DNA of 55,050 nucleotides from assembly GCA_001725155.1 (NCBI GenBank), contig MEFP01000021.1:1-55050 (forward strand), given 5' to 3'. Below the pieces are notes generated by a model. The model was not told the DNA's origin. It worked only from the letters and a program-made list of their open reading frames with translations, and did not search any database. Of this stretch, positions 4,253-52,878 are shown piece by piece (within the stretch, counting starts at the first letter, position 1; each line of letters opens with the position of its first letter). This DNA is from Lysobacteraceae bacterium SCN 69-320 (GTDB taxonomy: Bacteria; Pseudomonadota; Gammaproteobacteria; Xanthomonadales; Rhodanobacteraceae). The translations under genes and the position numbers were made by a program.

Positions 4253-6397
4253 ATGAACGTACCGCGCCAGCTCCATCGTTTCACCGTCCTCGTTGCGCTT
4301 GCGGCAGCCGGTACGTTGACGGTCATCGGCCCGGCAGCTCAGGCCGCCACGCCGGTGCCGGGCGAGTTCGTGACGGTCGAAGCGCTCGATCCGTATCTGG
4401 AGTACCCGGCGATCGCGCTGAAACAGGCCGGGACGACCTATCCGAACGGACCGCAGACGGCTGTTTTCGTCGCCGCGCTCGATCCGACCAATCCGCGCAA
4501 GCAGGTTTTCGTCAGCAACTTCGCGCCAGGCGCCAACCTCTACGGCTTCGACGCGGCAACCGGAACGGGTCTGCCGGGCTTCTCGCCGGCGGAGCAGACC
4601 GGGGCCTGGAGCGGCATCTCGCTGCTCTCGGCGGTGCCGATGCGCGAACCGGGAGAGCCTGTCGCATCCGGCGCGCCAGTGTTGTACCGCCAGAGTCTGT
4701 TCGAGCATCACGGTACCGGCACGACCTCGGCGGGTTCGCTGGCGATCCTCAGAATGCTCGATGCCCAGGGCGGAACACGCTGGAGTTCGTTCCCGACGAA
4801 CACGAGCTACGGACCGTTGCCGTTTCCTGCGGCGGTATCCGGTTCTATGCCGGCCGAATCGGACGGCGTGGACGACGCGGCGCTGTTTCTCGACGAGGAG
4901 AACTACCGGGCGATCGTGCGCTCGGCGAGTCAGGGCGGCATCTTCTGGGACGCTGCCGATCCGTACGGTCAGCAGGTCAACGCGGCGGCGGTAGCCGACA
5001 ACGGAGGGGTTGCCTACCCTCCGGCGTTCGTGTTCTGCCGCGGACGCGGCGTTTGCCTGCTGGAGAAGCGCCGGATCAAGGACGGGACGCTGCTGTGGCA
5101 GAGCAATCTCGGCTCGGCGCACATCTTCAACTTTGTCGCGGCCGGTGATCTCGACGGTATCGCCGGCGACGAGATCGTCGCGGTGCCGCGCCTGCCCGCA
5201 GCGCCGTGGCATGCGTTGATCTACGTGCTCGACGGCGGCACGGGCGCCCTGCGCTGGTCGTTCGATCTGGGCGAAGACGCAGGCTGGGCGCCGGCGCCGA
5301 CGCTCGCGGATCTCGACGGCGATGGATTGCCGGAGGTGATCGTGCAGACCGCTTCGCGCCTGCATGCCGTGAAGTATTTGCACGGCGAATTGCCCGGCTG
5401 GCCGGTCGAGACGTCGACCGTAGTCATCAGTCCCGTGCGGTCGCAGGCCGTCGTCGGCGATCTCGACGGCGACAGCGACCTCGAAGTCGCGATCGTGTCG
5501 AAGGATGCAAATATCGTTGCCTACGGCACGCTCGACATTTTCGATGCGCAGGGCAGGCGCGAGTATTTCGCCGGATCGGTGCTGATGAACGTCGGTGCGG
5601 GCCTGACCCCGGCGATCGCCGACGTCGACGCCGATGGGCACAACGAACTGATCCTGGGATCGTCCCTCGGTTCCGGTTCGCCGAATGTCCTGTCGCCGTC
5701 GCTGTGGACGCTCGATTTCAGTCGCGGGAACACCGCCGTCACGCATGGCGCCATCGCCTGGGGGCAGTACGGAGCCGACGCGCAGCACAGTGCTCGCGCG
5801 CTGTCGCCGACGCCGTCGATTGCGTTCGGCCCGCGCGCGCTGACAGCAGCGGCGCTGCCGCAGGCGACGGCGAGTGTCCGGCTTGCGCTTGCCAATCGGG
5901 GAGCGCGCCCGTTGACCTGGAGTCTGCAGGACGGCAAGCCCTGCGGAATTGCCCAGGCGACCTGGCTGCATCCGACGCCCACGACCGGTGTCGTGCCCGG
6001 TGGCCGCGATCAGGTCGTCGACATGGATTTCGATGCGACCGGTCTTGCGCCGGGACGCCATGAGACGATCGCCTGTCTCACGAGCAACGATGCCGCCTAC
6101 GGCGCGATCCGGATTCCCGTGCGGCTCGACGTGACGGTGACCGGGTATCGGGTCGATGTGAGCGCAGGCATCGGCGGGCGCGTCTCGCCGGCGACCTCGC
6201 AGGTGCATGCGGCCGGCGCGCAGCCGCGCTATCTGCTGGAGCCGGACTCCGGCTATCTGACGCAAGCCGTGCGAGGCTGCAGCGGCACGCTGGTCGCGAA
6301 CGAGTTCGTGCTGGATCCACTTGCCGGCGACTGCGTCGTCGAGCCGACGTTCTGGTCCGACCGGGTATTCGCCGACGCCTTCGAGGCGGTGCCGTGA
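4253..6397 (+). CDS. Secreted VCBS/FG-GAP repeat protein with FxxxFE tail
   Basis: An exported protein of 714 residues. The N-terminus has a basic n-region, an Ala/Val/Leu core and a likely cleavage site after A-Q-A. Between about residues 290 and 510 it carries several D-x-D-G-D-x-x-P/E-hydrophobic segments (D-L-D-G-D-G-L-P-E, D-L-D-G-D-S-D-L-E, D-V-D-A-D-G-H-N-E), the calcium-loop signature of FG-GAP/VCBS beta-propeller repeats. An immunoglobulin-like region follows, and the chain ends D-R-V-F-A-D-A-F-E-A-V-P, one of the recurrent tails in this window. The ATG at 4253 was preferred over in-frame TTG (4175) and ATG (4190) because it has AGGA upstream and begins the signal peptide directly. 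It lies 165 bp after the hybrid kinase on the same strand. Function is unknown; an extracellular or outer-surface role is inferred. Confidence 0.8.
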   Translation: MNVPRQLHRFTVLVALAAAGTLTVIGPAAQAATPVPGEFVTVEALDPYLEYPAIALKQAGTTYPNGPQTAVFVAALDPTNPRKQVFVSNFAPGANLYGFDAATGTGLPGFSPAEQTGAWSGISLLSAVPMREPGEPVASGAPVLYRQSLFEHHGTGTTSAGSLAILRMLDAQGGTRWSSFPTNTSYGPLPFPAAVSGSMPAESDGVDDAALFLDEENYRAIVRSASQGGIFWDAADPYGQQVNAAAVADNGGVAYPPAFVFCRGRGVCLLEKRRIKDGTLLWQSNLGSAHIFNFVAAGDLDGIAGDEIVAVPRLPAAPWHALIYVLDGGTGALRWSFDLGEDAGWAPAPTLADLDGDGLPEVIVQTASRLHAVKYLHGELPGWPVETSTVVISPVRSQAVVGDLDGDSDLEVAIVSKDANIVAYGTLDIFDAQGRREYFAGSVLMNVGAGLTPAIADVDADGHNELILGSSLGSGSPNVLSPSLWTLDFSRGNTAVTHGAIAWGQYGADAQHSARALSPTPSIAFGPRALTAAALPQATASVRLALANRGARPLTWSLQDGKPCGIAQATWLHPTPTTGVVPGGRDQVVDMDFDATGLAPGRHETIACLTSNDAAYGAIRIPVRLDVTVTGYRVDVSAGIGGRVSPATSQVHAAGAQPRYLLEPDSGYLTQAVRGCSGTLVANEFVLDPLAGDCVVEPTFWSDRVFADAFEAVP

Positions 6398-6494
6398 CCG
6401 TCCGGCGCATCGACCTGGGCAGCCACGCGGCCGGCGGATTGCACGCGGCGGCCGAGCTGCGGCCGGCCGGGGAACGGATTCCAAGAGCCCGTCG

Positions 6495-7260: not shown

Positions 7261-7448
7261 AGCGACGAACGACCCGCTGGCTTCGTGCAGATGCTCCGGG
7301 GCGAGCCGGTGCGATTCGGTGCGGATGAGCCGCGCCGCAGCGTACGCGTCGAAGGAAATTCCCGAACGGTGCGGCGGCAGCCTGCCCGATGCCGCGTGAC
7401 GCGGAGAACGGCCCGCGCCGCGCGGTTGCGGATGGCGCCGGTGCCGGT

Positions 7449-8979: not shown

Positions 8980-9077
8980 CACCGACGAGGTCGATCTCGC
9001 GGCTCCTCGCCGCTGCATCCGCTCGCACCGCCAACGGCAGCGCCGCGGCGGCGGTCCTGTCCATCGCGGAGGTTGTC

Positions 9078-22351: not shown

Positions 22352-25300
22352 ATGCCCACCGCTGCCAGATTGCCGACGGCGTCCGTCGACCCGCACAGCC
22401 GGAGACATGATTCCGTCGACATCGGCAGGACGCGGCCGGCAGCGGCGGGCGGTATCGCTGCCCGGCTGGCAGCCTGGATGCTCGTTCTTCTCGCCGGCCT
22501 GACGGCGGACAGCGCGTTCGCCTCCGGGTTCATGGCGGCGCCGGCACCGGCGACGGCGCGCTCCGGCCACACGGCCACCTTGCTGCCGTCGGGCAAGGTG
22601 CTCGTTGCCGGCGGCACGGGCACGGGCGGTGCGACCTTGAGCAGCGCCGAGATCTACGACCCTGCGACGAATACCTGGACGGCCGGAGCTCCGATGGTCG
22701 GGGCGCGCGCCAACCACACGGCGACGCTGTTGCGCTCGGGCAAGGTGCTGGTCGTCGGCGGTGTCAACGGCACGACGATCCTCGGTACCGCGCAGTTGTA
22801 CGACCCTGCGACGAATACCTGGAGTCCCGCCGCCGCACCGGCGAGTACGCGCGCCAACCACACGGCGACCGTGCTGTCCTCGGGCAAGGTGCTGGTCGTC
22901 GGCGGCAACAACGAAAGCGTGCTCACTAGCGTGGAAATCTACGATGCGGCCACCGACAGCTGGTCCATGGGGCGCCAGCTCGCCATGGCACGCACGAACC
23001 ACACCGCGACCTTGATGCCGTCGGGCCGGGTGCTCGTCGTCGGCGGCTTCCGCATCGCGGCCCTCGACAGCGCCGTGCTCTACGACCCGGTGACGGATAC
23101 CTGGATCACGGCGCTGACGCTGGCAACGCCGCGCAGCGCGCACACGGCCACGCTGCTGCCGAACGGCAAGGTGCTCGTGACCGGAGGACTCAACGGCAGC
23201 ACCGCGCTCGCCAGCGCGGAACTCTTCGACCCCACGACCGGCTGGAGCGCAGCCCCGGCGATGGGTGCTGCGCGCCAGGCGCATGCGGCGACCTTGCTGT
23301 CGACGGGCGAGGTACTGGTCGCCGGCGGCGCCGCCGGAAACGCGGCGGGCAGCGCGCGGCTGGCCGGGGCAGAGCGGTACGACCCCGCGACGAACCGGTG
23401 GATCTACGCCGACGACCTCGTCGCCGCACGCAGTCAGGCGACGCTGACCTCGCTGCCGAACGGCCTGCTGCTGTTCGCGGGCGGCGCCGATGCCACGGGT
23501 CCGCTCGCCAGTGCGGAACTCTACGACCGTACGACGCCGTACTCCCTGACCTGGGCGACCGGCGGCACGCTCGCGGCGGGGCGCAGGGATCACACGAGCA
23601 CCGCGCTGCCGTCGGGCAAGGCGCTGGTCGTCGGCGGGGGGCTGGCCAGCGACGGCAACAGCGCGCTGTCCAGCGTCGAGCTGTACGATCCGGCGGCCAA
23701 CGCGTTCACCGCCGCGGCGCCGCTCGCGGTCGCGCGCCGCTATCACAGCGCGACCTTGCTGGCCTCGGGCAAGGTGCTCGTGGCCGGCGGCTACAACGGC
23801 ACCAGCATGCTCAATACTGCCGTGCTGTACGACCCGGCCGCCAACAGCTGGAGCGCTGCCGGCACGATGGGCAGGACCCGCGCCCTGCACTCGGCCACCT
23901 TGCTCGCGTCCGGCAAGGTGCTCATCGTCGGCGGCACCGAGAACGGCGGCGGCATGCCCAACACGGCCGAGGTCTACGATCCCGCGACGAACGCGTGGTC
24001 GCCCGCGGGCACGATCACGCGGGTGCGCTTCCATCATGTCGCCGGCCTGCTGGGCTCGGGCAAGGTCATCATCGCCGGCGGCGACAACGGTCCTTCGGCG
24101 TTCGACAGCGTGGAGATCTACGATCCCGCGACGAATGCCTGGAGTGCGGGTCCGCCGATGTCCAGCGCGCGCCAGGAGGCCGTGGGCGTGATGCTGCCGT
24201 CGGGCAAGTTCCTCGTCGCGGGCGGCGCCAACGTCTCGGGCGTCGTCGTCGGCAGTGCGGAGCAATACGATCCGGCGGCGAACAGCTGGTCCGGCGTCGC
24301 GTCGATGACGGCGCAGCGGCGCTGGCACGTCGCTTCGCTGCTGCCGTCGGGCAAGGTGCTCGTCGCCGGCGGCATCGACGCCTATTACAGCTACAACACC
24401 TACGACTGGGCCGAGCTGTACGACCCTGTGCTGGACCTGTGGATGAATGTCGGTTCGTTCGGCACGCCGCGCCAGGGCCACACCTTGACCACGCTGCCGT
24501 CGGGCAAGGTGATGATCGCCGGCGGTACCGACGGCAGCACGTCGTACGCCAGCACGATGCTGTACCAGCCGCAGTCGGCCACGCTGTCGTCCAACGTCGC
24601 CGCGATACCGTCGGCGCGCGGCGGGCACACCGCCACCTTGCTGTCGACCGGCAGGCTGCTGCTCGCCGGCGGCGCCGACGCGTCGAATCCGCTCGGTACG
24701 ACGCACCGCTACGATCCGTCGGCAGGCACCTGGAGCGCCGGTGCCGGGCTTGCGACGGCGCGGCGCTGGCACACCGCGACCACGCTGCCCGACGGACGCG
24801 TGCTCGCGATCGGCGGGCTCGGTACCGGCGGTGCGCTCGCGAGCGTCGAACGCTACGACCCGGCCGCCAACCAATGGAGCGCCGCCAGTCCGCTTGCGGC
24901 GGTGCGGCGGGCGCACACCGCCACGCTGCTGCACAGCGGACAGGTGCTCGTTGCCGGCGGGTTCGGGACCGACGCGATGAACGGCGCGGAACGCTACGAC
25001 CCGGCGACCAATGCGTGGACCGGCGCCGGCACGATGACCGCCGCGCGCTACCAGCACGCGGCCACCTTGCTGCCGAACGGCAAGGTGCTGGTCACCGGCG
25101 GCAGCAGCGCCTCGGCCGCGCTCAATACGGCCGAGCTGTACGATCCGCTCAGCAACAGCTGGACCGGCGCAGGAACCTTTTCCGCAAGTCGCGAATTGCA
25201 TACGTCCACCCTGTTGCCGTCCGGCAAGGTGCTGCTGATCGGTGGGCGCAGCGGTACGAGCTATCGCGGCGCCCTGGTCGTCTACGACCCGGCGACGAAT

Positions 25301-27784
25301 GCCTGGACGACGCTCAACAGCGCACTGTTCTCGGCGACCTATTCCCACACGGCGACCGTGTTGCCCTCGGGCCGCGTGCTGATTGCCGGCGGCGACCGCG
25401 GCGACGGCGCCGGCCATCGGCGCGTCGCGATCTTCGATCCGGTAACGGACGTGCTCACGGCGGTGGCTCCGCTGGCGATCCCGCGCTACGGCCACACGGC
25501 GACCTTGCTGCCGACGGGCAAGGTGCTGATCGCCGGCGGCTTCAACGCCGGCGGACCCGTCAGCGCGAACGAGCTGTACGACCCCGATCTCACGCCGGCG
25601 GCCGCGCGGCGTCCCGACCTCGCGTCGGCCGGCAGCTTCGCCACGGCGACTGCCGCGCTCACCGCCAACGCGACCGGCACCACGTACAGCAGCGGCGCCG
25701 TCCAGACGACGGGCTTCCTGTCGCCGGTCGACGGCAGCAGCGGCAGCGGCACGGCGAGTTCGGCGACGGGCTTGCCGGTGATCCAGGTGCAGCGCCTGGA
25801 CAACGAGCAGCAGCGCTACGTCGAGGGCGATGCGGCCGGCGTCACCGACACGCTCTTCACCGGGCGCAGCACGGCATTGGCCGGCCTCCCGCCGGGGCCG
25901 GTGCTCGTGCGCGCCTGGGTCAACGGCGTGCCCGGTGCCGCGCGCTACACCACGATCGCGAGCACGGCCGGACAGCCGACCGCGGTGTCCGCGGCCGCAG
26001 GCACGCTGCAGGCAACGGTGAATTTCACGGCGCCGGCGACCTACACCGGCGGCGCGCCGATCACGGGCTACGTCGCTACGGCTACGGGCGGCGCGACGGC
26101 TTCGTGTACGGCGCCGTGCACCAGCATCGTCTTCGATCCGCTGCCCGGCGGCACGTATACGTTCACCGTTTCTGCGGTGAACGCGGCGGGCGCGGGCACG
26201 GCGTCGGTGGCCAGCAACAGCGTTTCGATACAGGCGGCCCCGACCCTGAACCTGTCCAGCGGCACGAACCCGTCGACGGTCGGCGACAGCATCACGTTCA
26301 CGGCGACGCTGGCGCAGGCGGCCGCACCGACCGGCACTGTGCAGTTCTGCGCCAATTCCGCGATTACGCTTTCCGGCTGCAGCGGCGGTACCGTGCTGTG
26401 CACGGTGCCGGCGAGCGCATCGCCGGTCGCCTGCACGACGTCGGCGCTGCCGGCGGGCACGCACCTGATTGCGGCGTGGTATCCCGGCGATGCGAACAAC
26501 GGGTTCGCCGCCTCGCCCACGCTGAGCCAGGTCGTCGACAAGCGCGTGCCCAGCCTCGGATGGGCCGAACCCGCGCCGATCAGCTACGGCACGGCGCTCG
26601 GCGCGGCACAACTGAACGCGTCGGCCACCTACGACGGCAACCCGGTCGCGGGCACCTTCACCTACACGCCGCCGGCCGGCACCGTGCTCGGCGCCGGTGC
26701 AGGCCAGATGCTGTCGGCGACCTTCGTACCCGCCGATACGGCCACCTACGCCACGTCCGGCGTGGTCGTCAGCACCACCTTGCTCGTCAACGCCGTTCCG
26801 ACCGCGACCGCCATCGGCAGCATCGCCGGTGCCCGCGCCGGTGTCGCGCTGAGCGTGCCGTATGCGGTCTCCGGCACCGGCGGCGCGCCGGCCGTGCCCG
26901 GCGGCGGCAGCATCGTCGTCACGGCCACACCCGGCGGCGCAACGTGTACGGCGACCGTCGCTGTCGGGCAGTGCGCGATCACCTTGGCCGCGACAGGAAG
27001 CTACGCGCTGACCGCGCAGTACGACGGCGACGCGAATTTCCTGCCCTCGGTCTCCAGCCCCGCAACCACGGTGGCGGTCAGTGCCAACACGACCACGACC
27101 GCGCTGGGCATCGCGCCGGATCCGTCCCTGCCCGGCCAGCCGGTGACGGCGTCCGTATCGGTTGCCGATACCACGGGCGGCCCGGCGCCCACCGGCAATG
27201 TCACTATCAGCGCCGATTCCGGCGAAACCTGCGTGGCGCCGCTGTCGGGCGGCGGCGCAGGGCAGTGCATGCTGATCCTCACGCAACCCGGCACGCGCAC
27301 GCTCACGGCGAGCTACGCCGGAGACGCCGCCAACGCGGTCAGCGCCGGCACGACGACGCACACCGTCAACCGCGCCAGCGTCTCCATCGGCGTCGACGAC
27401 CACTTCAGCTACACGCGCTACGGCGCCGTGCCGGCCTACGTCGTCACGCTGACCAACGCGAACCCGGTCGCCACGCACCCCGTGTTGACGGCGAGTGCGC
27501 CGGGTTCGGGAATCAACCTCGCGAGCGCGCAGTGGTTCTGCACGAGCAACGGCGGCGGCAGCGGCTGCGTCGACGGCAGCGGTCCGTTCACGGCCAACGT
27601 GACGGTGCCGGCGAACGGCGCCATGACCTGGAGCCTGCTCGTGCCTGTCGTGCAGGCCAGCGGCAATCCGACCGTCGAGCTGCGCATCGACGTCAGCGGC
27701 GATGTGAATCCCACGAGCGCCAGCGACATCAATACGCTGGTGATATTCCGCAATGGGCTGGAGGTTCCCGGCGATACGCAATGA
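22352..27784 (+). CDS. Giant secreted protein with 21 Kelch repeats and Ig-like domains
   Basis: An 1810-residue exported protein. The N-terminus has a long n-region of about 38 residues before a hydrophobic core (W-M-L-V-L-L-A-G-L) and a site near A-F-A-S-G. Residues 66-1083 hold 21 Kelch-type repeats of roughly 45-50 residues, most reading H-T-A-T-L-L-P-S-G-K-V-L-V-A-G-G then Y-D-P-A-T-N-x-W; 21 would fit three seven-bladed propellers. A fibronectin III-like domain, Ig-like (Big_3-type) domains and a final DUF11-like domain follow. The tail L-V-I-F-R-N-G-L-E-V-P-G is a variant of the recurrent tail. GAGGTCCCG precedes the ATG. The role is unknown; glycan or matrix binding is plausible. The opposite strand has a 5.4-kb open frame, which is a GC artefact. 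Confidence 0.88.
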   Translation: MPTAARLPTASVDPHSRRHDSVDIGRTRPAAAGGIAARLAAWMLVLLAGLTADSAFASGFMAAPAPATARSGHTATLLPSGKVLVAGGTGTGGATLSSAEIYDPATNTWTAGAPMVGARANHTATLLRSGKVLVVGGVNGTTILGTAQLYDPATNTWSPAAAPASTRANHTATVLSSGKVLVVGGNNESVLTSVEIYDAATDSWSMGRQLAMARTNHTATLMPSGRVLVVGGFRIAALDSAVLYDPVTDTWITALTLATPRSAHTATLLPNGKVLVTGGLNGSTALASAELFDPTTGWSAAPAMGAARQAHAATLLSTGEVLVAGGAAGNAAGSARLAGAERYDPATNRWIYADDLVAARSQATLTSLPNGLLLFAGGADATGPLASAELYDRTTPYSLTWATGGTLAAGRRDHTSTALPSGKALVVGGGLASDGNSALSSVELYDPAANAFTAAAPLAVARRYHSATLLASGKVLVAGGYNGTSMLNTAVLYDPAANSWSAAGTMGRTRALHSATLLASGKVLIVGGTENGGGMPNTAEVYDPATNAWSPAGTITRVRFHHVAGLLGSGKVIIAGGDNGPSAFDSVEIYDPATNAWSAGPPMSSARQEAVGVMLPSGKFLVAGGANVSGVVVGSAEQYDPAANSWSGVASMTAQRRWHVASLLPSGKVLVAGGIDAYYSYNTYDWAELYDPVLDLWMNVGSFGTPRQGHTLTTLPSGKVMIAGGTDGSTSYASTMLYQPQSATLSSNVAAIPSARGGHTATLLSTGRLLLAGGADASNPLGTTHRYDPSAGTWSAGAGLATARRWHTATTLPDGRVLAIGGLGTGGALASVERYDPAANQWSAASPLAAVRRAHTATLLHSGQVLVAGGFGTDAMNGAERYDPATNAWTGAGTMTAARYQHAATLLPNGKVLVTGGSSASAALNTAELYDPLSNSWTGAGTFSASRELHTSTLLPSGKVLLIGGRSGTSYRGALVVYDPATNAWTTLNSALFSATYSHTATVLPSGRVLIAGGDRGDGAGHRRVAIFDPVTDVLTAVAPLAIPRYGHTATLLPTGKVLIAGGFNAGGPVSANELYDPDLTPAAARRPDLASAGSFATATAALTANATGTTYSSGAVQTTGFLSPVDGSSGSGTASSATGLPVIQVQRLDNEQQRYVEGDAAGVTDTLFTGRSTALAGLPPGPVLVRAWVNGVPGAARYTTIASTAGQPTAVSAAAGTLQATVNFTAPATYTGGAPITGYVATATGGATASCTAPCTSIVFDPLPGGTYTFTVSAVNAAGAGTASVASNSVSIQAAPTLNLSSGTNPSTVGDSITFTATLAQAAAPTGTVQFCANSAITLSGCSGGTVLCTVPASASPVACTTSALPAGTHLIAAWYPGDANNGFAASPTLSQVVDKRVPSLGWAEPAPISYGTALGAAQLNASATYDGNPVAGTFTYTPPAGTVLGAGAGQMLSATFVPADTATYATSGVVVSTTLLVNAVPTATAIGSIAGARAGVALSVPYAVSGTGGAPAVPGGGSIVVTATPGGATCTATVAVGQCAITLAATGSYALTAQYDGDANFLPSVSSPATTVAVSANTTTTALGIAPDPSLPGQPVTASVSVADTTGGPAPTGNVTISADSGETCVAPLSGGGAGQCMLILTQPGTRTLTASYAGDAANAVSAGTTTHTVNRASVSIGVDDHFSYTRYGAVPAYVVTLTNANPVATHPVLTASAPGSGINLASAQWFCTSNGGGSGCVDGSGPFTANVTVPANGAMTWSLLVPVVQASGNPTVELRIDVSGDVNPTSASDINTLVIFRNGLEVPGDTQ
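22550..25600 (+). repeat. Kelch-coding degenerate repeat array
   Basis: Twenty-one degenerate repeats of roughly 130-160 bp, one Kelch blade each, lie in tandem inside the large secreted protein gene. The most conserved nucleotide block encodes S-G-K-V-L-V-x-G-G. Divergence between copies is greater than in the 342-bp Calx-beta array. Confidence 0.85.
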
Positions 27785-27974: not shown

Positions 27975-29621
27975 TCAGAGCAGGGTGTTTTCCGGTGTCG
28001 GCGTGACCAGGGTGAACACATAGCCGGCCGTGCCCGGCGTGGCGGCGGTGAACGCCTGGCCTGCGACCGGATTGCCGTTGCCGCCATTGCCGCCGTTACC
28101 ACCGCAGGCACCGCCGCCGCTGCCGGCCTGGTTGGTGCTCGTGGAGGACGCATCCGTGCCCGCCGCACCACCGTTCACGAGCAGTTGGCTGCCGGCGGCG
28201 TTGATCGTGCCCGCGGAGACGAGCTTGATGATGCCGCCGCCACCGCCGCCGCCGCCGCCCGCACCACCCGCTCCGCCGTTGCCGTTGACGCCGGGTCCGC
28301 CGGTGCCGCCGACGGCGCGCAGGAAGCCGTTCACGGTGATGCTGCCTTGCGAGGCGATGAGGATGACGCCGCCGCCACCGCCGCCGGGGCCCGGAATGTC
28401 GGTCGCGCCGCCGGGGTTGATGCCGGAACTGCCGTTCGCGTTGATCGCGCCGCCGGCAGAAACCGTGACGGTGCCGCGAGCGGCGATCGTCAGGATGCCG
28501 CCGCCTTCGCCGCCGTTGACGGTGCCCTGAGAGAGGTTGCGGTCACCGGCGCCGCCGGCCGTGGGCACGGTCGGGCGCAGCTGCGATGCCTGCAGGGCGC
28601 CGAGGCCGATGCCGCCGTGGATCTGTCCGGCCGGTGCGAGCGAGATGCCCGGGTTCGGTGCGCCGTTGCCGCTGTCCGCCGCGCCGGACGCGACGATGAG
28701 GGTGCCGGTACCCGTGATGGTGACGTTGCCGGTCGCGCGCAGCACGGTGCCGCTGGGCACGATCAAGGTGCCGGAGATCGTGATGTCGGTGAACTGCAGG
28801 GTAGCTTTGCCCTGCCCGGAAATGACGTTGAAGCCCGACACCGTCGTGAGATCCAGCGTGTTGCCGAACGGCACGTTGAACGCGCCGGCGCTGCCGTCGC
28901 CATAGAAGCCGAGCGCGCCGCTCGGACCCTGCGGGCCTTGCGCACCCTGCGCGCCTTGCGCACCGGTCGGGCCGATCTCGCCCTGCGGTCCGGTCGCACC
29001 GGTGTTGCCGGTCGCGCCTTGCGCGCCTGCCGGCCCGGTCGGACCGGTCGGACCGGTCGAGCCCTGCGGCCCTGCAGAGCCGGTTGCGCCGACGTCACCC
29101 TGGGTTCCCGTGGCACCCGTCGCTCCGGTGGTTCCGGTCGCGCCGGTCGGTCCCGTCGCGCCGATCTGTCCCGTTGCACCGGTTGCGCCTTGAGCGCCGG
29201 CGGGCCCGGTCGCGCCGGTAGCCCCCGTGGCGCCGGTCGCTCCAGGATTGCCGCTCAGCGCGTACTGCGCGACCGGTGCGGCGGACACGGGCTGGCGCGG
29301 GCTCAGCGGCTGTCCGTCGACGGTGATCTGCAGCCAGCGCTGCTGGCCGTCGAATGCGCCCGGGAAGGCCAGGTCGATCGTGAACAGTCCATCGAGCACC
29401 GGATAGGCGTTCGCCGTCACGGTGCTGCCGACCTGCAGGCCGCCCGTCGCCGCGTCGAAGAGCGCGAACGTCAGATTGCGCGTGCCGGTGACCGGCTGGT
29501 TGTTGTTCCTGAGCTGGCCCTGGTAGGTGAAGCTCTGGCCCTGCGGCGCGGCCTCGGCGGCGGAGACCGCCAGCGCGCCGGCGATAAGTGCGCCGAGCAC
29601 GCGGCGACGTAGCGAAGTCAT
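27975..29621 (-). CDS. Collagen-like glycine-rich secreted protein (cassette A, second gene)
   Basis: A protein of 548 residues. It has an N-terminal signal peptide ([11 protein letters not shown]), a beta domain of about 100 residues ([18 protein letters not shown]), then about 110 residues of collagen-like G-x-x triplets, mostly G-A-T, G-P-T and G-A-Q. A domain of glycine-rich beta repeats follows ([12 protein letters not shown]), resembling beta-helix coils. It ends with P-T-P-E-N-T-L-L and lacks the FxxGFQ tail. Its ATG overlaps the stop of the upstream small gene (ATGA), and the upstream tail codons supply its Shine-Dalgarno. A diverged second copy lies at 32716-34431. Likely a surface fibre or matrix protein. 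Confidence 0.88.
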
Positions 29622-29887
29622 GGTGTGGCCCCCTGAAAACCGTCGATGAAAATGCGATCCGAAACCAGCGGCGCAGCGACCCAGAAGCCGCCCGTGAGCT
29701 GGTAGCCGCCGCCGTCGGAATACCCCGGCGACGGCTGGCCGACCGTGCCGGCCAGCGACACGCCGCCGGCGCTGGAAACGCCGCCGCCACCGCCGATGGC
29801 CTGCCAGTCGATATGAAACTCCGCGAGCGCGGCCGCAGCCGGCAGCAACAGCAGCAGCGCCGCGGCCCGGCGAAGGCGCGGCCTCAT
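29618..29887 (-). CDS. Small secreted protein with FxxGFQ tail (cassette A, first gene)
   Basis: An 89-residue protein with a strong signal peptide (Leu/Ala-rich core ending A-A-A-L-A). The mature part of about 67 residues has [11 protein letters not shown], then [22 protein letters not shown], and ends [13 protein letters not shown]. The start at 29887 is uncertain: another ATG at 29925, with the strong leader CAGGGGAATCC, lies in a different frame. Thus either a 13-residue upstream peptide precedes it, or the signal peptide carries a frameshift. The homologue is at 32396-32713. No known family name; the T-V-G-Q...L-T-G-G-F-W pattern is a small beta module. Confidence 0.75.
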
Positions 29888-32395: not shown

Positions 32396-32713
32396 ATGAA
32401 CACCCGTACTGCCCGCGACCGGTCCCGTTCGCGGACCGGCGCATTCGTGCTCGTCGCGCTCGCGGCGGCGCTTACCGTCTCGCCCTCGTCGGACAGCCGC
32501 GCCGGCACAGCCACCTACCGCATCGACATTCACCGCATCAGCGCCGGCGGCGGCTCACTGCACAATGCCTGCTATCGGCTGGACGGCAGCGTCGGCCAGC
32601 CGGCGCCGGGCTATTCCAACGGAGCGACGTTGTCGGTGAATGCGGGCTTCTGGCCTGCCGTCGCCGTCGATCGTCCCGACCAATTGTTCTTCAGCGGCTT
32701 CCAGGGGTGCTGA
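32396..32713 (+). CDS. Small secreted protein with FxxGFQ tail (cassette B, first gene)
   Basis: A protein of 105 residues with an Arg-rich n-region, an Ala/Leu/Val core and a site near S-R-A-G. The mature part matches the small protein of cassette [12 protein letters not shown], then [15 protein letters not shown] and A-G-F-W, ending [11 protein letters not shown]. The start ATG has CAGGGGGAATCG upstream. The tail codons (GGC TTC CAG GGG) place CAGGGG 8 nt before the ATG of the collagen-like gene, so the two should be translated together. One unpaired Cys is the final residue, which suggests lipidation or disulphide attachment. Confidence 0.85.
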
Positions 32714-32715
32714 GC

Positions 32716-42424: not shown

Positions 42425-45136
42425 CTACTCGAAGGTGCCGGCGAACAGGCGGTCCACCGCCGGGCAGCCCGCGTCGTAGTCGCTCTGATATTTCGCCAGA
42501 TCGGCCGCAGTGATCGTCGGCAGTCCGTTCGCCGACAGGGAATGGTCGTAGTTGGCGCGCACATTGCCCGCGTCGTACGCCGCGGTGAAGGCGGCGAGAT
42601 CGGTCGCGTCGAGCACGTGGTCGGCGTTGAAGTCGGCGCGACAGAACCCGGCCGGCGTCGAGCCGGCGTCGTCCGGCCGCGCCGCGTTGTCGCGTTCGTC
42701 GCGATCGAAGTAGCCGTCGCCGTCGCGATCCACGCCCATGCGGTATTGCGCACCGCCCGGCACCACGGTGAAGGTCACGGGTTCGGCCGCGCTGGCGGCG
42801 GCCCGCAGCGCGGCCGGCGTCGTCGGCGCGTTCTCGCGGTCGCTCAGCATCACGGCCTGGGTCGCATACACGTAGCCGCGGGTAGCGCTGTGCGCGACCA
42901 CGCCGGCCGAACCCGCATCGGACTGGGCGAGATAGGCATTCAAGCGCGCGATCAGCGCGGAATCCTCGTTGTTCGCACCGTTGAACGTGATCTGCTTGCC
43001 GACGGTGGCGAAGGTCTCCGTGTCGAACGTCAGCAGGAAAGCCTCGACGTCGCGGCGGGCCTGGGCCGCCGTGGCGGGCGGCCCGAAGTTGAAGCCGACC
43101 TGCAACAGCGCGCCGAGCGAGTCGAACTCGGAATCGCTGTTGAAGCCGAAGCCGCGCAGATTGGTCTGGCTGGTCCTGGACCAGCCCAGCTTGTCCCACA
43201 GCCCGCGCAGCTGCACCGCCTTCATCGGCTGCGGCGCCAGGGGCAATTGCGGATTGTCGACGATGTTGCTGGTGCCCAGCGGCAACGCATGGCAGACCGT
43301 GCAGGGGCCGCCGCCGAGCGTCGGCTGGTTCTGGAAAATGTTCCTGCCATTGGCCGGATTGCCGTTGCCCCCGGTGACGGCGAGGCTGGCCGGCAGACTG
43401 CCGTCGGCGGCGTGGTTCGGATTCGGCGGATAGGCCACGAGCGCGAGGAAGTTCTGCAGCTTGGTCATGTCCGCGGCGCTCGGCTCGGTGTCGCGGCCTT
43501 GCAGGCCGACGAATGCGGGCGAGAACGCGGCCACGTCGTGCCGGTCGCCGCGCCAGTGCATGGCGCCGGCGTTGACGATGCCCTGCAGGCTCTGGGTCAG
43601 CATCGGTCCCTTCATCGGATGCCAGACACCGCAGCTCTGTCCCGGCGGGCAGGGAAGATCGACGGCCTTGAGCGCTCCCTGCGGATCACCAAGGTCCCAG
43701 GCCAGGAAATCGGATTTCGCGTCGACGTGGCAACTGGCGCACGCGATCTGGCCCAGGCCGCTGCTCGTGTGCGTGCCGTACAGCAGAGGCCGGCCTTCCC
43801 TGATCGCCTGGGGCGTGGGATCGAAGAATGCCGTGCGGCCGAGTTCCTGCTGCGCGGCCGTGTCGATGCGCGAGATCGTCGCATCGAAGCGATTGAGCAC
43901 GTACAGGCGCGAACCACTGGCGTTCAAGGCGAGGCCGGTCGGGCCCTGGCCGACATTGATGCGTGCCGAGCGCGCGCCCGAGGCATCGGTCACGATGACG
44001 TTGTTCGAGCCCATGCCGGAGACGAAGGCGCGCCCGTCGGCCGGATGCCAGACGATGCCGCGCGGATCGCCGAGCGACTGCTCGCGCACGTCCTGCGGCA
44101 CGCGGCGCACGGTGTAGTCCAGATGCGGGTTGAGATCGGCGACCTGGGTCAGTGCGACGTTGGCCGGGTCGAACGAGCCGATCTGAACACGCAGGAAAAT
44201 GCTCTGCACCTGGGGTTCGAAGCGCACCTGATTGAGCGCCTCGGTGCCGACCGCGGCGACGCGGCCGTCGGGTTTCACGGCCAGCGCCATGACGGTCGTC
44301 ATCAGGCGGTCGGCGTAGCTCACGGCGAGGCTGCCTGTAGCGATGACGGCGACGTCGTGGTCGAGCACGTTCCAGCCGACCAGGTTCGACCAGTTGCGGT
44401 TGTTGCCGTCCAGCCACTGACCGGCGGCGGTGCGGCGCACGATCTGGGCGACGCGCGGCGCGGCGCCATTGGCGGGGAGCTGCGGCGGATCGAACGCGGC
44501 GCCGCTGTTCGGCGGCGGATTCTGTCCGGCGTAGGGCCCGGCCGGATTGGACACGGCGGGAATGTCCACGACGCTGGTGGCGTTGCCGGATTCGAAGAAC
44601 GCGACATAGACCCGGCTGCCGTCCGGCGCCAGCGCCAGCGCCCGCGGGCGGCGTCCCTGCAAGGCCACGACGGTCGGTGCGGCGCCGAGGTCGGCCGGGT
44701 CGTAGCGCTTGACCTGGTTCGCTTCGGCAATGCTGACAAAGGCGCGTTGTGGATTTCCGGCAAACACCACATCGCCGGGTTCGTCCCCGACGTCGACGCT
44801 GCGGGTCACGCGCAGGGTCGTCAGATCGACCACGCTGATGTTGTCCGACAGGGCGTTGACGACCCAGGCCTCGGCATTGCCGCGCGCACGCACGCTGACC
44901 GGTTCGATGCCGACCGGGATCGACGCCAGCGGAGTCAGGCCGCCGTCGGCGGCGGCGACGCTGAAGACCTCCAGGCGCTGGTCGGCGGTGTTGACTGCCA
45001 GCAGGCGGCTGCCGTCGGGCGTCAGCTCCAGCGGGTGGACCTGCGCACTTTCCCAATCGACGACGCGGTTCTGCGCCATCGCAGTTCCCGCCGCCAGCAC
45101 CAGCGACAACAGCCCGCACGTCGTGCGCATCCACAT
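42425..45136 (-). CDS. Beta-propeller, dihaem cytochrome and dockerin-like protein with FxxTFE tail
   Basis: A 903-residue exported protein with a signal peptide (site near A-M-A-Q). Residues 25-440 form a YncE-like beta-propeller (L-E-L-T-P-D-G-S-R-L-L-A-V-N, D-N-I-S-V-V-D-L). Two C-x-x-C-H motifs (C-A-S-C-H at about 465 and C-T-V-C-H at about 611) lie in a cytochrome c peroxidase/MauG-like region, with Met- and His-bearing segments nearby. The C-terminus (about 790-895) has the calcium-loop pairs D-R-D-G-D-G-Y-F-D-R-D-E and A-D-F-N-A-D-H-V-L-D-A-T-D-L-A-A-F, similar to dockerin type I, and ends D-R-L-F-A-G-T-F-E. Start could be 45136 or 45130. It is divergent from the BaeSR-like pair. Confidence 0.88.
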   Translation of the reverse strand: MWMRTTCGLLSLVLAAGTAMAQNRVVDWESAQVHPLELTPDGSRLLAVNTADQRLEVFSVAAADGGLTPLASIPVGIEPVSVRARGNAEAWVVNALSDNISVVDLTTLRVTRSVDVGDEPGDVVFAGNPQRAFVSIAEANQVKRYDPADLGAAPTVVALQGRRPRALALAPDGSRVYVAFFESGNATSVVDIPAVSNPAGPYAGQNPPPNSGAAFDPPQLPANGAAPRVAQIVRRTAAGQWLDGNNRNWSNLVGWNVLDHDVAVIATGSLAVSYADRLMTTVMALAVKPDGRVAAVGTEALNQVRFEPQVQSIFLRVQIGSFDPANVALTQVADLNPHLDYTVRRVPQDVREQSLGDPRGIVWHPADGRAFVSGMGSNNVIVTDASGARSARINVGQGPTGLALNASGSRLYVLNRFDATISRIDTAAQQELGRTAFFDPTPQAIREGRPLLYGTHTSSGLGQIACASCHVDAKSDFLAWDLGDPQGALKAVDLPCPPGQSCGVWHPMKGPMLTQSLQGIVNAGAMHWRGDRHDVAAFSPAFVGLQGRDTEPSAADMTKLQNFLALVAYPPNPNHAADGSLPASLAVTGGNGNPANGRNIFQNQPTLGGGPCTVCHALPLGTSNIVDNPQLPLAPQPMKAVQLRGLWDKLGWSRTSQTNLRGFGFNSDSEFDSLGALLQVGFNFGPPATAAQARRDVEAFLLTFDTETFATVGKQITFNGANNEDSALIARLNAYLAQSDAGSAGVVAHSATRGYVYATQAVMLSDRENAPTTPAALRAAASAAEPVTFTVVPGGAQYRMGVDRDGDGYFDRDERDNAARPDDAGSTPAGFCRADFNADHVLDATDLAAFTAAYDAGNVRANYDHSLSANGLPTITAADLAKYQSDYDAGCPAVDRLFAGTFE

Positions 45137-47545: not shown

Positions 47546-47568
47546 GTGACGGAACGGTCGATGGCGCC

Positions 47569-48246: not shown

Positions 48247-48630
48247 ATGAGCCAGCCAATCCGGTGCAGAACTTTCGTGAGAACCGCCGCTCCTCGGATG
48301 CTGGCGCTGCTCCTGGCCGGTTGCGCGAATCGGACCGTCGCTCCGGATGATTCGGCGAGTGTCGACGCCAACGCGTCATTGATGGCGGAGCCGACGCCGT
48401 CGGAGTGGACGACAGGGCCGGTCTGGCATTTCGTTCAGTCGCGGCGTGACGGAACGATCGAGCGCGAATTCAGGGTACGCGTCACTGACCAGCCCGAGCA
48501 GGCCTGCAGCTCTGGGGACTGGCGGGCGCCGGGTGCGCTGAGTCTCGCCGCCTTCCAGTCGATTGCCTCAGGCATCACCGGCACCGTCACGACCGCTGCG
48601 TGCCTTCGCGCGACCCGTACGTGGAGTGCG
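48247..48630 (+). pseudogene. Truncated lipoprotein in frame with the next gene
   Basis: From the ATG at 48247 the frame encodes a lipoprotein signal (Arg-containing n-region, then M-L-A-L-L-L-A-G-C lipobox at about residues 18-26), followed by about 100 residues (E-W-T-T-G-P-V-W-H-F-V-Q-S-R-R-D-G-T and D-Q-P-E-Q-A-C-S-S-G-D-W-R-A) that look like the N-terminal part of a small envelope protein. There is no stop codon; the frame runs straight into the beta-propeller gene starting near 48631. I read this as a lipoprotein gene that lost its 3' end, but a single long fusion of 681 residues starting at 48247 is possible. Confidence 0.55.
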
Positions 48631-50289
48631 ATGTCAGGTTTCGGCGGCAAGCACGTACGCCGGCGGGAAGGTGCGGATGTCCCGCGCCGGAGCCGTGCCG
48701 TGTCCCTGTCCCGATCCGTTGGTCTCGCTGTCGGTGTGCTCGTGTCTTCCCTGCTGCCGTCGGCGGGCTTCGCCCAGGTCGACGGCAGTCTCGATCCGGC
48801 CTTCGGCAGTCCCGCCGATGCCGGGCGCATCGCGTTCTCGATCGTCTCGCGCGATCCGGCGGATACGCCCGGTTCGTTGAACTGGGCGCAGGTCACGCCG
48901 TTCAAGGTGCTGCCGCGCCGCGACGGTTCGGCCATCGTCTGGTCGAACGCCGCCACGCCCTACGACCTGCCGATCAGCGCGCCGACCGTGCCGGTCGCGA
49001 TACGGATCCGGGCCGACGGCACCTGGGACACCACCTGGGGCGCCAGCGGCGGCGGCCGCACGGTGATCTACGTCGGTGAGGATTACAACTGGCGTGCCGC
49101 CGATGCCGTGACGACGGCCGACGGCGGCATGGCCGTCGTGGGCACCATCGACAACCCCGACGGCAGCAGCGACATAGCGGTCTGGCGATTCCTCGAGAAC
49201 GGCCAGATCTTCGCCGGCTTCGGCACCAACGGCCTGCGCCGGCTGCGTCGCGGCGGCCTGCCCTCGGACGCGGGCAAGGTCCTGCACCGGGCCGATCTGG
49301 ATCTCCTCGGCCAGGGCTTTCCGTCCCCGGACCTGCTGATCGTCGGCGCCAACATCCGCGACGGACTGATGGGCGTGCACGACCTCGGGCTCATCATCCT
49401 GGACGAGCTGGGTTCGGTCTGCCCGTCGTCGGTGGCCGCCTGCGGCAACGTCGTCGGCGGCAACGTGGGTTCGCCCAGCGAATGGCGCATGCTGCGCCTG
49501 GGCAGCGCGCTGTGTCCGAACGGCGGCGACGTCGACGTGGCGGACCTGACCAAGTTCGACGCCGGAGTCTCCGACGCGATCCCGGTGCTGATTCGCGGCT
49601 GCGGCGATACCGCCGTCGTCAAGCACACGATCATCGGCAACGTCGGCGGCAGTAGCTGGGGCTGGACCACGAATACGGGCTACGCCAACAGCGGCCGTTC
49701 GCTCGTCACCTTCGGCACGGGCTTCCGCGTCGACGGCAACGCGATCGTGCATGCGCCGCTGCCGGGCGTGGCGCTGGGCAGCGAATCGCTCGTCATCGCC
49801 GGCGCGCGCGCTCAAGCCGACGGCAGCCAGCCGCGCCTGATGGCCGCGCGGCTGGACCGCACCTCGTTCACCGCGGCGACCTACGACGCCGATCCGCCCG
49901 GCGATCCGTGGACCAGTCCCGGCGCCTACGCCGATGCGCTGCTCGTGCAGCCCGACGGCAAGCTGATCCTCGGCGGCGGCGGCGCGCTGTCGTCGTGGAC
50001 CTTCGGCGACGGCCTGCTGATGCGCCTCAATGCCGACCTGTCGCCGGATGCTGCGTTCGGCAACCTCAGCGTGAGCCTGCCCGGGCGGCAGCTGTACGGC
50101 TACCCGATCGGCGGCACCGACCGCGACAACCGCGTCAACGCGATGGCGCTCACCGCCGACGGCAAGCTGCTGCTCGCCGGCTACGTGTACGCGAGCAACG
50201 ACGGCAACTCGCGCTACGGCTCGGTCATGCGCGTGCGGCTGCAAGGCGACCGCCTGTTCACGAACGGGTTCGACCCCGTGCCGCAGTAG
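48631..50289 (+). CDS. Secreted beta-propeller protein with FTNGFD tail
   Basis: A protein of 552 residues from ATG 48631, with GGAG just upstream. After a Lys/Arg-rich n-region of about 30 residues there is a good signal core (S-V-G-L-A-V-G-V-L-V-S-S-L-L-P-S-A-G-F-A-Q). The mature chain opens D-G-S-L-D-P-A-F-G-S and carries several repeats around L-N-A-D-L-S-P-D-A-A-F-G, L-T-A-D-G-K-L-L-L-A-G and V-Q-P-D-G-K-L-I-L-G-G, which is the delta-60 (TIGR02608-like) propeller motif. Four Cys pairs may form disulphides. The chain ends D-R-L-F-T-N-G-F-D-P-V-P-Q. It shares a frame with the upstream lipoprotein remnant; a GTG at 48700 is another start option. Confidence 0.82.
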   Translation: MSGFGGKHVRRREGADVPRRSRAVSLSRSVGLAVGVLVSSLLPSAGFAQVDGSLDPAFGSPADAGRIAFSIVSRDPADTPGSLNWAQVTPFKVLPRRDGSAIVWSNAATPYDLPISAPTVPVAIRIRADGTWDTTWGASGGGRTVIYVGEDYNWRAADAVTTADGGMAVVGTIDNPDGSSDIAVWRFLENGQIFAGFGTNGLRRLRRGGLPSDAGKVLHRADLDLLGQGFPSPDLLIVGANIRDGLMGVHDLGLIILDELGSVCPSSVAACGNVVGGNVGSPSEWRMLRLGSALCPNGGDVDVADLTKFDAGVSDAIPVLIRGCGDTAVVKHTIIGNVGGSSWGWTTNTGYANSGRSLVTFGTGFRVDGNAIVHAPLPGVALGSESLVIAGARAQADGSQPRLMAARLDRTSFTAATYDADPPGDPWTSPGAYADALLVQPDGKLILGGGGALSSWTFGDGLLMRLNADLSPDAAFGNLSVSLPGRQLYGYPIGGTDRDNRVNAMALTADGKLLLAGYVYASNDGNSRYGSVMRVRLQGDRLFTNGFDPVPQ

Positions 50290-50628: not shown

Positions 50629-52878
50629 CTAGAAATCGTAGCCGTTGGCAAACAGTACATCGCCCCCGGCAATGGCAACGACGTTCGAGTATTCCGACGT
50701 GTTGTTGGCGTTGCAGGCCGACAGAATGATCCCGTTATTGCCAAGGAAGCACTTCAGCTGTCCCTGCCAACCGCTGCCGGACGGCACGTTGGTCAGCGGC
50801 GTGATGTCGGTGGCAGTCATCACGATACGGCGCCCGTTGGATACGGGCGGCAACGTGGCCGTGCAACGCGCTCCCGAACAGGCGCCGCTGCTGGCAGGCC
50901 TGCCAGTGCCGTCGGTGGTGATCAGCTGCTCGCCCAGAAAGACCATCGACGTTGCCGCGGTGGTCGCGGCGGCATTGATCGAATAGAACTCCATGCGAAA
51001 GTTGGCCGGGCCGTGGCTGGTGATCGTCCAGCGCGCCAGGGTGTTCGCACCCGTGTTGCTGGGTGCAGCGGCGCCGACGCACGGTCCGGACAGTTCGGTG
51101 CCCGTGCAGATCTGCGGCGTGTTCTGATCGCGGTTGGCGTAATTGGGGGGGAATTCGCCGTGATCGAAGTCGGCGGCATTGGGGCTGTGCTCGAGATCGA
51201 TGTCCACTCCGGCCAGCGTTTTTGCATTGCCATACACGCGGTTGCGCTGGAACAGGTTGGCCCAGCCGCTGGTGTCGCCGCCGCCGTTGTAAAGCTTGAT
51301 GCCATTGCGCTTGTTCGCGACGACCACGTTGCGGTCGCTCGCACCGGGGCCGCCCACCGTCGTGGAGGCGGCCGTTTCGATATGGATGCCGTCCACGCCG
51401 TTGCCCAGGGTCGTGGCGTTGGCGAATTTCGCGCTGATGCCCACCAGGTTCTTGGTGATGGTGGTGCTGTTGGTACTGCTGCCACGTACCGTGATGCCGT
51501 GGCGTGCATTGGCCGAGACGGTGTTGCCCGTGATGGCATTGCCGGTGGTGGTGACGATGATGCCGTCGCCCTTGTTGCCGAAGGCGGCGGAGTTGATCGG
51601 CGTGCCGGTAGGAAACTCGGCCAGGCCGATGGTGTTGTAGAGCACCTTCACGCCGTTGCTCGCGCCCGTGATCATGACGCCGGCATAGTCCGCCCCTACA
51701 TCCGGGAAGGCATTGTTGTTCGCCCCCTTGTTGTCGGAAATCAGATTGGCCGGGCCGATGACGGCGGCGGTGAAACTCGGGTTGAAGCTGGTGCCCGACG
51801 TATCGGGCCTGGAATCGACATAGATGCCGCTCAGGGCGTTGCCGACGTGCACGGCCTGATTGGCGGCGCTCAGGCCGATACGGTTGCCCATGATGAAGTT
51901 CGGCAGGAATACGGCACCGGAGGCGTCATTGATGCCGTTGCCATTGTTGCCGCTGATGACATTGCCCGGACCGATCATGTTGCCGAAGGTCGTACCGGTC
52001 AGGTTGACGCCGTTGCCGCCGTTGGCGATGGCGATGTTGCCGGTGAGGTCGGTGCCGATCATGTTGCCGCTGACGAATACCGCCGCGAGATTCTGGCTGA
52101 AGATCTCGATGCCATCGCCGCCGTTGCCGGAGATGACGTTGCCGTTGACGAACACCGGCTGCAAGGAGGCGAGCGTCGTGGCCAGCTGGCTCTGGAAGGC
52201 GTTGACCGCGGACGCATCGACCGGCTGCACCGGGAATTGCGAGTACAGGTTGGACAGGAAGCCGGAGCTGGTATCGGGATAGACGCGCGACGCCGACAGC
52301 GAGATGCCGTCGCCCGTATTGGGCATCGCGACGGCGCCGGTCGCGTTCACGCCGATGTAGTTGCCACTGAACGTGTAGTTGTGGCCATTGGCGCTGATGC
52401 CGTTGCCGTTGCAGTTGCCGATGTTGAGATTGAAGATCTTCGAACCGGTGGCGCCGTCGGCATGGCCCAGCGCGGCGGTGCCCGAGTCGGTAAGATCGAA
52501 GCAGCTGCGACCGTTGCCGTTGATCGTCACCCGGTTGCCGTTGATCGTATACGGCGCACGCAGCTGCGGCAGCCCGCCGTTGACCACGGTGATCGAGGTG
52601 ACGCCGACGAAGTTGATCGTGTGCGAACCGGAGCGATTGTTGCCGAACATGATCGCCGCGCGCAGCGAGCAGTGCGTCGTATCGCCCTGGGCCGCGCACT
52701 TGGTGGTGGTGGCCGGATCCTGCGGGGCATCGCTGGACACGTTCACGTTGTAGATTTCGGCGTGGGCCTGCAGGCCCAGCCCGCCCAGCAGGGCGCCTGC
52801 CAGCCACAGGGTGCGCAGGCGCTGCGCGCCGGAGTGAAACCGCTGGCCGCGCCGGTGCGCGGAGTGCATCGTGTTCAT
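50629..52878 (-). CDS. Secreted right-handed beta-helix protein with FANGYDF tail
   Basis: A 749-residue exported protein with a signal peptide (L-W-L-A-G-A-L-L-G-G-L-G-L-Q-A-H-A). Near residue 70 it has C-S-L-R-A-A-I, the C-S-L-R-E-A-I-like start motif of bacterial cell-surface beta-helix proteins (CSLREA type). From about 110 to 600 it contains many parallel beta-helix turns with N-x-I-S-G-N-x-G-N-G-I and G-N-x-I-G patterns, as in pectate-lyase-like or NosD-like folds. A beta-sandwich follows, and the chain ends D-V-L-F-A-N-G-Y-D-F. The ATG at 52878 has AGGTAAGG upstream. Likely surface-exposed, adhesin-like or polysaccharide-active; no catalytic site recognised. Confidence 0.87.
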   Translation of the reverse strand: MNTMHSAHRRGQRFHSGAQRLRTLWLAGALLGGLGLQAHAEIYNVNVSSDAPQDPATTTKCAAQGDTTHCSLRAAIMFGNNRSGSHTINFVGVTSITVVNGGLPQLRAPYTINGNRVTINGNGRSCFDLTDSGTAALGHADGATGSKIFNLNIGNCNGNGISANGHNYTFSGNYIGVNATGAVAMPNTGDGISLSASRVYPDTSSGFLSNLYSQFPVQPVDASAVNAFQSQLATTLASLQPVFVNGNVISGNGGDGIEIFSQNLAAVFVSGNMIGTDLTGNIAIANGGNGVNLTGTTFGNMIGPGNVISGNNGNGINDASGAVFLPNFIMGNRIGLSAANQAVHVGNALSGIYVDSRPDTSGTSFNPSFTAAVIGPANLISDNKGANNNAFPDVGADYAGVMITGASNGVKVLYNTIGLAEFPTGTPINSAAFGNKGDGIIVTTTGNAITGNTVSANARHGITVRGSSTNSTTITKNLVGISAKFANATTLGNGVDGIHIETAASTTVGGPGASDRNVVVANKRNGIKLYNGGGDTSGWANLFQRNRVYGNAKTLAGVDIDLEHSPNAADFDHGEFPPNYANRDQNTPQICTGTELSGPCVGAAAPSNTGANTLARWTITSHGPANFRMEFYSINAAATTAATSMVFLGEQLITTDGTGRPASSGACSGARCTATLPPVSNGRRIVMTATDITPLTNVPSGSGWQGQLKCFLGNNGIILSACNANNTSEYSNVVAIAGGDVLFANGYDF

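Follow-up and report, generated by a model that had tools for sequence, protein, structure and literature searches.

A large C-terminal tag system of Lysobacterales with a second T2SS locus as candidate machine

The window analyzed here, the whole stretch of 55,050 nucleotides, encodes seven exported proteins ending in versions of one short tail, and this tail belongs to a real and large C-terminal tag system of Lysobacterales, for which no name was found and for which there is a strong candidate machine. It is near certain that the tail is a C-terminal sorting tag. Across genomes, the tag is strongly correlated with a second T2SS locus (T2SS-B), followed here through its GspC protein (GspC-B), and we consider it probable that T2SS-B uses the tail as a linear C-terminal sorting tag on periplasmic proteins exported by Sec or Tat. 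The earlier note on this DNA had read the tail as a sorting, secretion or processing tag; enrichment on exported proteins, the many folds that carry it and the co-occurring secretion locus all support that reading.

The tail in the window and in its genome

All seven tail strings listed in the earlier note were present at their positions in the window, as follows (strand in brackets):

4253..6397 (+): exported FG-GAP protein; tail DRVFADAFE-AVP at 6359-6397, a variant with A for G
22478..27784 (+): exported Kelch / Ig-like protein; weak tail LVIFRNGLE-VPGDTQ at 27737-27784
29618..29887 (-): small exported protein; tail of 13 residues at 29618-29659
32396..32713 (+): small exported protein; tail of 11 residues at 32678-32713
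42425..45136 (-): exported beta-propeller protein with YVTN-type repeats; variant tail DRLFAGTFE at 42425-42454
48298..50289 (+): exported delta-60 repeat protein; tail DRLFTNGFD-PVPQ at 50248-50289
50629..52878 (-): exported protein, a beta-helix according to the earlier note, without a Pfam match; tail DVLFANGYD-F at 50629-50661

Four of the tails (29618, 32713, 50289, 50629) agree with the consensus across the genome, D-x-[ILV]-F-x-[NDS]-G-[FY]-[EQD]; those at 6397 (A for G) and 42425 (G-T instead of the usual N-G) are near variants, and the tail at 27784, in which D is missing and L replaces F, is the weakest case, just as it had been described. The carriers had also been called seven unrelated proteins. 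Their folds are indeed diverse, but the small proteins at 29618 and 32713 look related to each other and share a module (..GQP.PGYS.G....GFW.., recognized by eye), hence six kinds of protein are represented, not seven. In the beta-propeller protein, a GC-type dockerin model matched below its cut-off just upstream of the tail.

Several other genes in the window were also noted. A collagen-like-repeat protein of exported type (27975-29600, -) adjoins one of the tagged small proteins, and Scl/Lcl adhesin models matched it below their cut-offs. The proteins at 10004-15877 (-) and 53098-53589 (-) have another tail in common, ..P-V-[SG]-L-Q-S-F-[QT]-[VI]-D, which was found in only these two among 734 sampled genes; the former is an ExeM/NucH nuclease (match above the curated cut-off), and the second ExeM-like protein of the genome (L083) ends in a D-x-I-F tail, not in one of the P-V-[SG]-L-Q-S-F type. 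A DUF11-type protein (32-1114, +) ends in a hydrophobic helix and basic residues, where a PEP-CTERM model matched below its cut-off; C-terminal sorting in this genome may thus involve more than a single system.

In the genome of the window, the pattern [ILVMF]F..G[FY][DEQH] was found at 98 sites, and its reversed form at 4. An in-frame stop followed within 12 codons at 66 of the 98 sites, all of which end frames open for at least 80 codons, while at the other 32 no stop lay within that distance. Because the window variants at 6397, 27784 and 42425 escape this pattern, the real number of tails is above 66. A total of 734 genes were then called from 1.03 Mb with a simple gene caller, which misplaced some start codons; this sample was centered on tag sites, and the frequency of the tag in it is not the genome average. 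The strict pattern ended at most 10 residues from the C-terminus in 57 of these genes, with 0.47 expected from the density of the pattern inside the same proteins (16 hits in 276,442 positions). A chance origin of the tail is thus excluded.

Among 55 complete tagged genes, the column counts were D 51, F 55, G 52, F 52 and E/Q/D 52, giving the consensus D-x-[I/L/V]-F-[A/R/x]-[N/D/S]-G-F-[E/Q/D] followed by 0-9 residues, often P. The 66 tails yielded 64 different 18-mers, the peptide IFANGF was encoded in 12 different ways in 12 of 12 instances, and AT-rich relatives encode the same peptide with other codons. The tail DNA hence varies freely at third bases, which points to selection of the signal at the protein level.

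Tagged proteins and known C-terminal signals

By a crude rule, a signal-peptide-like start was present in 44 of the 55 tagged genes and in 246 of 627 others. Combining such a start with the absence of any further membrane helix gave 42/55 against 182/627 (Fisher p 6e-12), which bears out the expected enrichment of the tail on exported proteins. Several of the starts in the 11 tagged genes without a signal-like start look miscalled or resemble weak signal peptides. Tat-type starts (RR-x-F) were seen on a few tagged proteins, namely in the window's genome (L078), in relatives (L208, L217) and at L166, suggesting that the tag, like T2SS, can work on folded proteins beyond the inner membrane. Pfam domains identified in tagged proteins include Endonuclease_1, Exo_endo_phos, subtilase, M14 carboxypeptidase, M12B reprolysin, phospholipase C, Kelch, delta-60 and FG-GAP. 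Since the best matched stretches of many domain types stop before the tail, it is not a piece of one ordinary domain. No Pfam or NCBIfam match lay over the tail in the seven window proteins or in the further sets of 10 and 9 proteins scanned, and a PDB search with a tagged nuclease returned no match. That no named family is known for the tail agrees with these scans and with searches of open-licence PMC papers, in which none of the titles and abstracts listed named it.

PEP-CTERM, IPTL-CTERM and MYXO-CTERM signals each have many targets per genome, with diverse folds, and stand at the very C-terminus as a motif, a helix and basic residues; in PEP-CTERM these are the PEP motif, a membrane helix and an Arg-rich end. 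GlyGly-CTERM is likewise defined by a Gly-rich motif, a membrane helix and a basic C-terminal end. The tail behaves as a CTERM-type sorting tag, yet it fails the GlyGly-CTERM and PEP-CTERM features that were tested. Direct reading of the C-termini of the 55 tagged genes upheld the earlier observation that there is neither a hydrophobic helix nor a basic end; the tail is instead one soluble block of about nine residues plus a short, often P-rich end. The succession of motif, helix and Arg-rich end typical of PEP-CTERM was absent, and no NCBIfam CTERM model matched the tails of the window proteins and of nine further ones. Two tagged proteins matched, below the curated cut-offs, the NCBIfam GlyGly-type ExeM model and the model of a MYXO-CTERM-anchored family (MXAN_5453), the latter in one protein, so the tail seems to be placed where other bacteria have a CTERM anchor. 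ExeM-type nucleases carry either GlyGly-CTERM or this tail.

Other C-terminal signals compare as follows. The outer-membrane protein beta-signal is a last beta-barrel strand ending in an aromatic residue, whereas here the second F/Y/L is followed by E/Q/D in 52 of 55 cases, often with a P-rich extension, and the Pfam hits are enzymes and propellers. The T9SS C-terminal domains of Bacteroidota are folded domains of about 80 residues that serve the outer-membrane passage of Sec-exported proteins; the tail resembles them as a C-terminal signal on Sec-exported proteins but has no folded domain model, and the NCBIfam T9SS C-terminal domain models gave no match at the tails in 16 proteins scanned. 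A classical C-terminal PDZ ligand needs a terminal free carboxylate; the tail runs to the last residue in 18/55 genes and has 1-9 extra residues behind it in 37/55.

The likeness to GlyGly-CTERM and rhombosortase lies in a short C-terminal sorting tag, in the exported nucleases and proteases that carry it and in a tie to T2SS (PMC13393428). For T2SS substrates, the determinants described in PMC12369372 and PMC7949064 include loop 3 of PelI/Pel3 and the Ig-fold of VesB, with the PDZ domain of GspC implicated. Like these, the tail is a signal on folded periplasmic proteins; theirs are structural and specific to a protein, in contrast to one linear motif in dozens of proteins.

Distribution of the tag and of T2SS-B

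Among the 147 genomes of the window's family, a scan with D..[ILVMF]F.[ND]GF[DEQH] found 10-169 sites in 34, a single site in 4 and none in 109; the distribution by genome is near all-or-none. In a set of 121 genomes from the order, 58 had at least three tag sites. A further 299 gammaproteobacterial genomes from outside the order gave 28 sites in 26 genomes, with at most 2 each, against 15 in 14 for the reversed pattern. The counts in other genomes are pattern counts, and C-terminal position was checked by gene calls on stretches of six few-tag genomes; in the stretches of one of these (G100), no called gene had the tail. A recurring D-L-V-F-x-G-G-F-Q match (G088, G100, G524) was set aside, being absent from the called tagged genes in the stretches examined and probably internal. 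Scanning for D-R-I-F-A-[ND]-G-F-[EQ]-stop revealed 29 loci, with the motif ending a called gene in 28 of them; these came from Tahibacter, Dokdonella, Rudaea, Pseudofulvimonas, Pseudolysobacter, other Lysobacterales and MAGs of Lysobacteraceae/Rhodanobacteraceae, five being labelled only "Proteobacteria". Lineage variants of the pattern were also seen (from G462, G453 and G502), F-x-x-S-F-E in f181 and F-x-H-G-F-E in G502, and such variants would be useful for testing co-evolution with GspC-B.

The co-occurring secretion locus that had been suggested as a search target was found in T2SS-B, the GspC of which tracks the tag. In a GspC-B profile search, with p values that ignore the kinship of the genomes, the protein was found in 32/34 tagged and 9/113 untagged genomes of the family (Fisher p 7e-22) and in 53/58 tagged and 16/63 untagged genomes of the order set (p 3e-14); joining the sets gave 82/89 and 25/160. 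The contrast recurs among close relatives. Within genus g9, the tag and GspC-B are both present in four genomes (G075, G088, G100, G121) and both missing in five (G008, G032, G061, G111, G131). In f2, which may be the Xanthomonas family, the tag occurs in a single genome of 18 (G524), and no other member has a strong GspC-B (399 bits in G524; G499 scored 55 bits), and in f183 one genome (G464) lacks a tag, GspC-B and a GspD match alike.

The exceptions are of several kinds. Both tagged family genomes without GspC-B are assembled in many pieces (680 contigs for G065; 770 for G037, which is 85% complete), and three tagged misses of the order set (G488, G498, G546) are 90%, 77% and 94% complete in 150-460 contigs. 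In two others, G501 and G529 (97 and 98% complete), the GspC-B search found nothing, and tails stand at called C-termini of 2 and 10 genes in the stretches read; each has only two GspD-model matches, which we read as the main GspD and PilQ. On the untagged side, the nine GspC-positive family genomes are G141 (78% complete, gspC in two pieces) and eight of genus g25, whose GspC scores are low (80-119 bits). In the order set, 4 of the 16 untagged GspC-B genomes show candidate tails, patterns flush with a stop that the first pattern had missed: 7 sites in G452 (2 reversed), 7 in G453 (0), 15 in G462 (1) and 11 in G502 (5), of the form F-x-x-[GS]-F-E in G452 and G453/G462 and F-x-H-G-F-E in 8/11 sites of G502. 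The same search gave 12 sites against 16 reversed in eight untagged genomes negative for GspC-B (G013, G010, G022, G464, G481, G528, G454, G463), and no sites in two g25 genomes. Family f184 has GspC-B in 18/18 genomes, at least three tags in 8 and fewer in 10; a looser pattern gave 33 sites against 6 reversed in its nine g268 genomes, hence some f184 tags may be diverged. Family f182 is mixed, with both traits in one genome (G545), the tag alone in two, GspC-B alone in one (G517) and neither in 14.

The T2SS-B locus is compact, consisting of gspC-gspD-gspE and often gspF, with an FtsE/FtsX-like pair after these genes in several genomes, and it adjoins rhlB, trxA and rho in many of the genomes read (L246, L326, L335, L337, L340). 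Gene names were assigned by eye, except for the proteins scanned with Pfam (GspC-B and the main C-like protein of the window's genome, and the G026/G004 pair below). In the window's genome, T2SS-B lies outside the window, on contig C3 near 167.8-172.4 kb; its GspC-B contains PF11356 (T2SSC domain) and a PDZ domain, and the C-like protein of the main system had no Pfam match. An extra, higher-scoring GspD was found in G000, G004 and G026, the three tagged family members of the order set; the untagged genus g11 has extra GspD matches too, but without GspC-B. No pseudopilin or GspL/M genes were seen by eye at the locus in the tagged genomes read, and T2SS-B therefore probably borrows those of the main Xps-type system. 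The PDZ groove has a basic residue (R/K) in 40/42 GspC-B sequences and M or V in three g25 GspC, an observation on which nothing was built.

Tagged genes also occur at or near the locus. In G026, one is divergent from gspC; its homologue in G004 has the variant tail I-I-F-R-Y-G-H-E, and a tagged homologue in G044 lies about 2.5 kb from the locus. Homologues of the same neighbor stand beside gspC in G057, G099, G030, G072 and G129, with tail ends outside the DNA examined, and G508 has two tagged genes within about 6 kb of T2SS-B.

Clustering of 1125 proteins from the few-tag genomes revealed three families that lack the tail themselves but recur close to tags, each in three or four genomes, two of them sigma-factor-like and the third a protein of 814-961 residues. 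The sigma-factor-like and large kinase-like genes (10 and 7 members in G000, G088, G524 and G529) recur 1-4 genes from tagged genes, as at L248 (13141-16630), L250 (13652-17192), L044, L055, L083, L244, L226 and L218. The pair beside the tagged-gene neighbor at the gspC locus of G026 and G004 was identified by Pfam as an ECF sigma factor and a protein kinase with TPRs. In light of this identity, the recurring neighbors were set aside as linked machinery and are read as regulators; a regulatory link of the pair to the tagged proteins is possible.

Rhombosortase (TIGR03902) scored above its 84-bit cut-off in 11/147 family genomes, none of them among the 34 tagged, unlike what co-occurrence with GlyGly-CTERM would entail; two tagged genomes, G016 and G037, came within 4 bits of the cut-off (80 and 83 bits). 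In the order set it was above cut-off in 8/121 genomes, including one of the 58 tagged (G529), and tagged G471 and G542 scored just under (83 and 82 bits). Eight g25 genomes have rhombosortase above cut-off beside gspC, with 80-115 bases between the matches (L323, L324, L325), an arrangement that, to judge by gene order, links GlyGly-CTERM sorting to a T2SS locus in Lysobacterales. Rhombosortase had been predicted for f184, with its GspC-B and few tags, before looking, and was not found there.

Proposed route and competing explanations

In the route that we propose, Sec or Tat would deliver the tagged protein to the periplasm, where, after folding, a flexible end would expose D-x-[ILV]-F-x-[ND]-G-F-[EQD] to T2SS-B, comprising a GspC with HR and PDZ domains, its own secretin GspD, the ATPase GspE and often GspF. 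The protein would be recruited by GspC-B, with the PDZ domain as a possible point of contact, and would reach the cell surface or the medium by way of GspD-B. Transport of the tagged proteins by T2SS-B and recognition of the tail itself are what we infer. Of the features expected of T2SS substrates, the Sec/Tat signal peptide is present in most tagged proteins, a few being Tat-like, and co-occurrence with a specific T2SS holds with the exceptions of G501, G529, f184, G517 and g25. PMC12369372 describes the Vibrio GspC PDZ as needed for VesB, the Ig-fold of which holds PDZ-dependent information, and this makes the PDZ domain of GspC-B a natural candidate for the reader of the tag. The extra residues behind most tails argue against a strict mode of PDZ binding to the terminal carboxylate. 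A wider claim, to which we give slightly less than even odds, is that of a portable linear T2SS signal: one nine-residue motif, present in each genome on unrelated proteins that number from tens to over 150, would be recognized by a GspC with a PDZ domain in a satellite T2SS (C-D-E-F) relying on the main pseudopilus, with a sister genus using rhombosortase and GlyGly-CTERM instead at a similar gspC locus.

The main rival gives the tag a role in anchoring or processing: another enzyme or an outer-membrane receptor would recognize it once the protein has been exported, with T2SS-B lying on the same route, as for GlyGly-CTERM and rhombosortase in Vibrio. The sub-cut-off matches of two tagged proteins to GlyGly-type ExeM and MYXO-CTERM models, the g25 gspC beside rhombosortase and the tags of G501 and G529 in the apparent absence of GspC-B speak for it, as does Vibrio GlyGly-CTERM, which according to PMC13393428 mediates membrane association, a separate signal being required for outer-membrane translocation. 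Without a membrane helix or basic end, however, the tail is a misfit with known intramembrane sortases, rhombosortase above its cut-off is all but missing from tagged genomes, and no candidate enzyme was found; we regard this explanation as unlikely. Shared ancestry alone, in which tag and GspC-B would both date far back in Lysobacterales and have disappeared independently of each other from the same lineages, appears improbable. Joint absence does cluster in f2, most of f182 and part of f1, the statistics take no account of kinship and f182 is mixed, but the joint contrasts recur inside f1 (g9), f2 (G524) and f183 (G464), and tagged genes stand at or near the locus in several genomes.

Slightly less credible still is a reading of the tag by the main Xps-type T2SS, with GspC-B a mere passenger. 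GspD (TIGR02517) was matched in 120/121 order genomes, 115 above the curated cut-off and G501 and G529 among the matches, as that explanation would have it; untagged family genera and untagged f2 genomes also have GspD, however, so the presence of the main system cannot explain the near all-or-none pattern. Finally, the tail might play no part in sorting and be a structural cap or the remnant of a repeat, as would suit the many repeat proteins among its carriers. Nucleases, proteases, a carboxypeptidase and a phospholipase carry it too, however, exported proteins have it in excess, and the near all-or-none distribution by genome had already disfavored this idea, which we consider highly implausible.

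We therefore retain the reading of the tail as a sorting tag for T2SS-B. How T2SS chooses its substrates is an open question: PMC12369372 states that there is no linear universal T2SS signal, and PMC7949064 that common linear sequences are apparently absent. A linear tag together with a candidate machine would make this question testable in simple environmental bacteria. The tag is a helix-free counterpart of the CTERM tags and has some protein families in common with them; it could serve as a fusion tag for the export of folded proteins, and with it much of an order's secretome becomes predictable.
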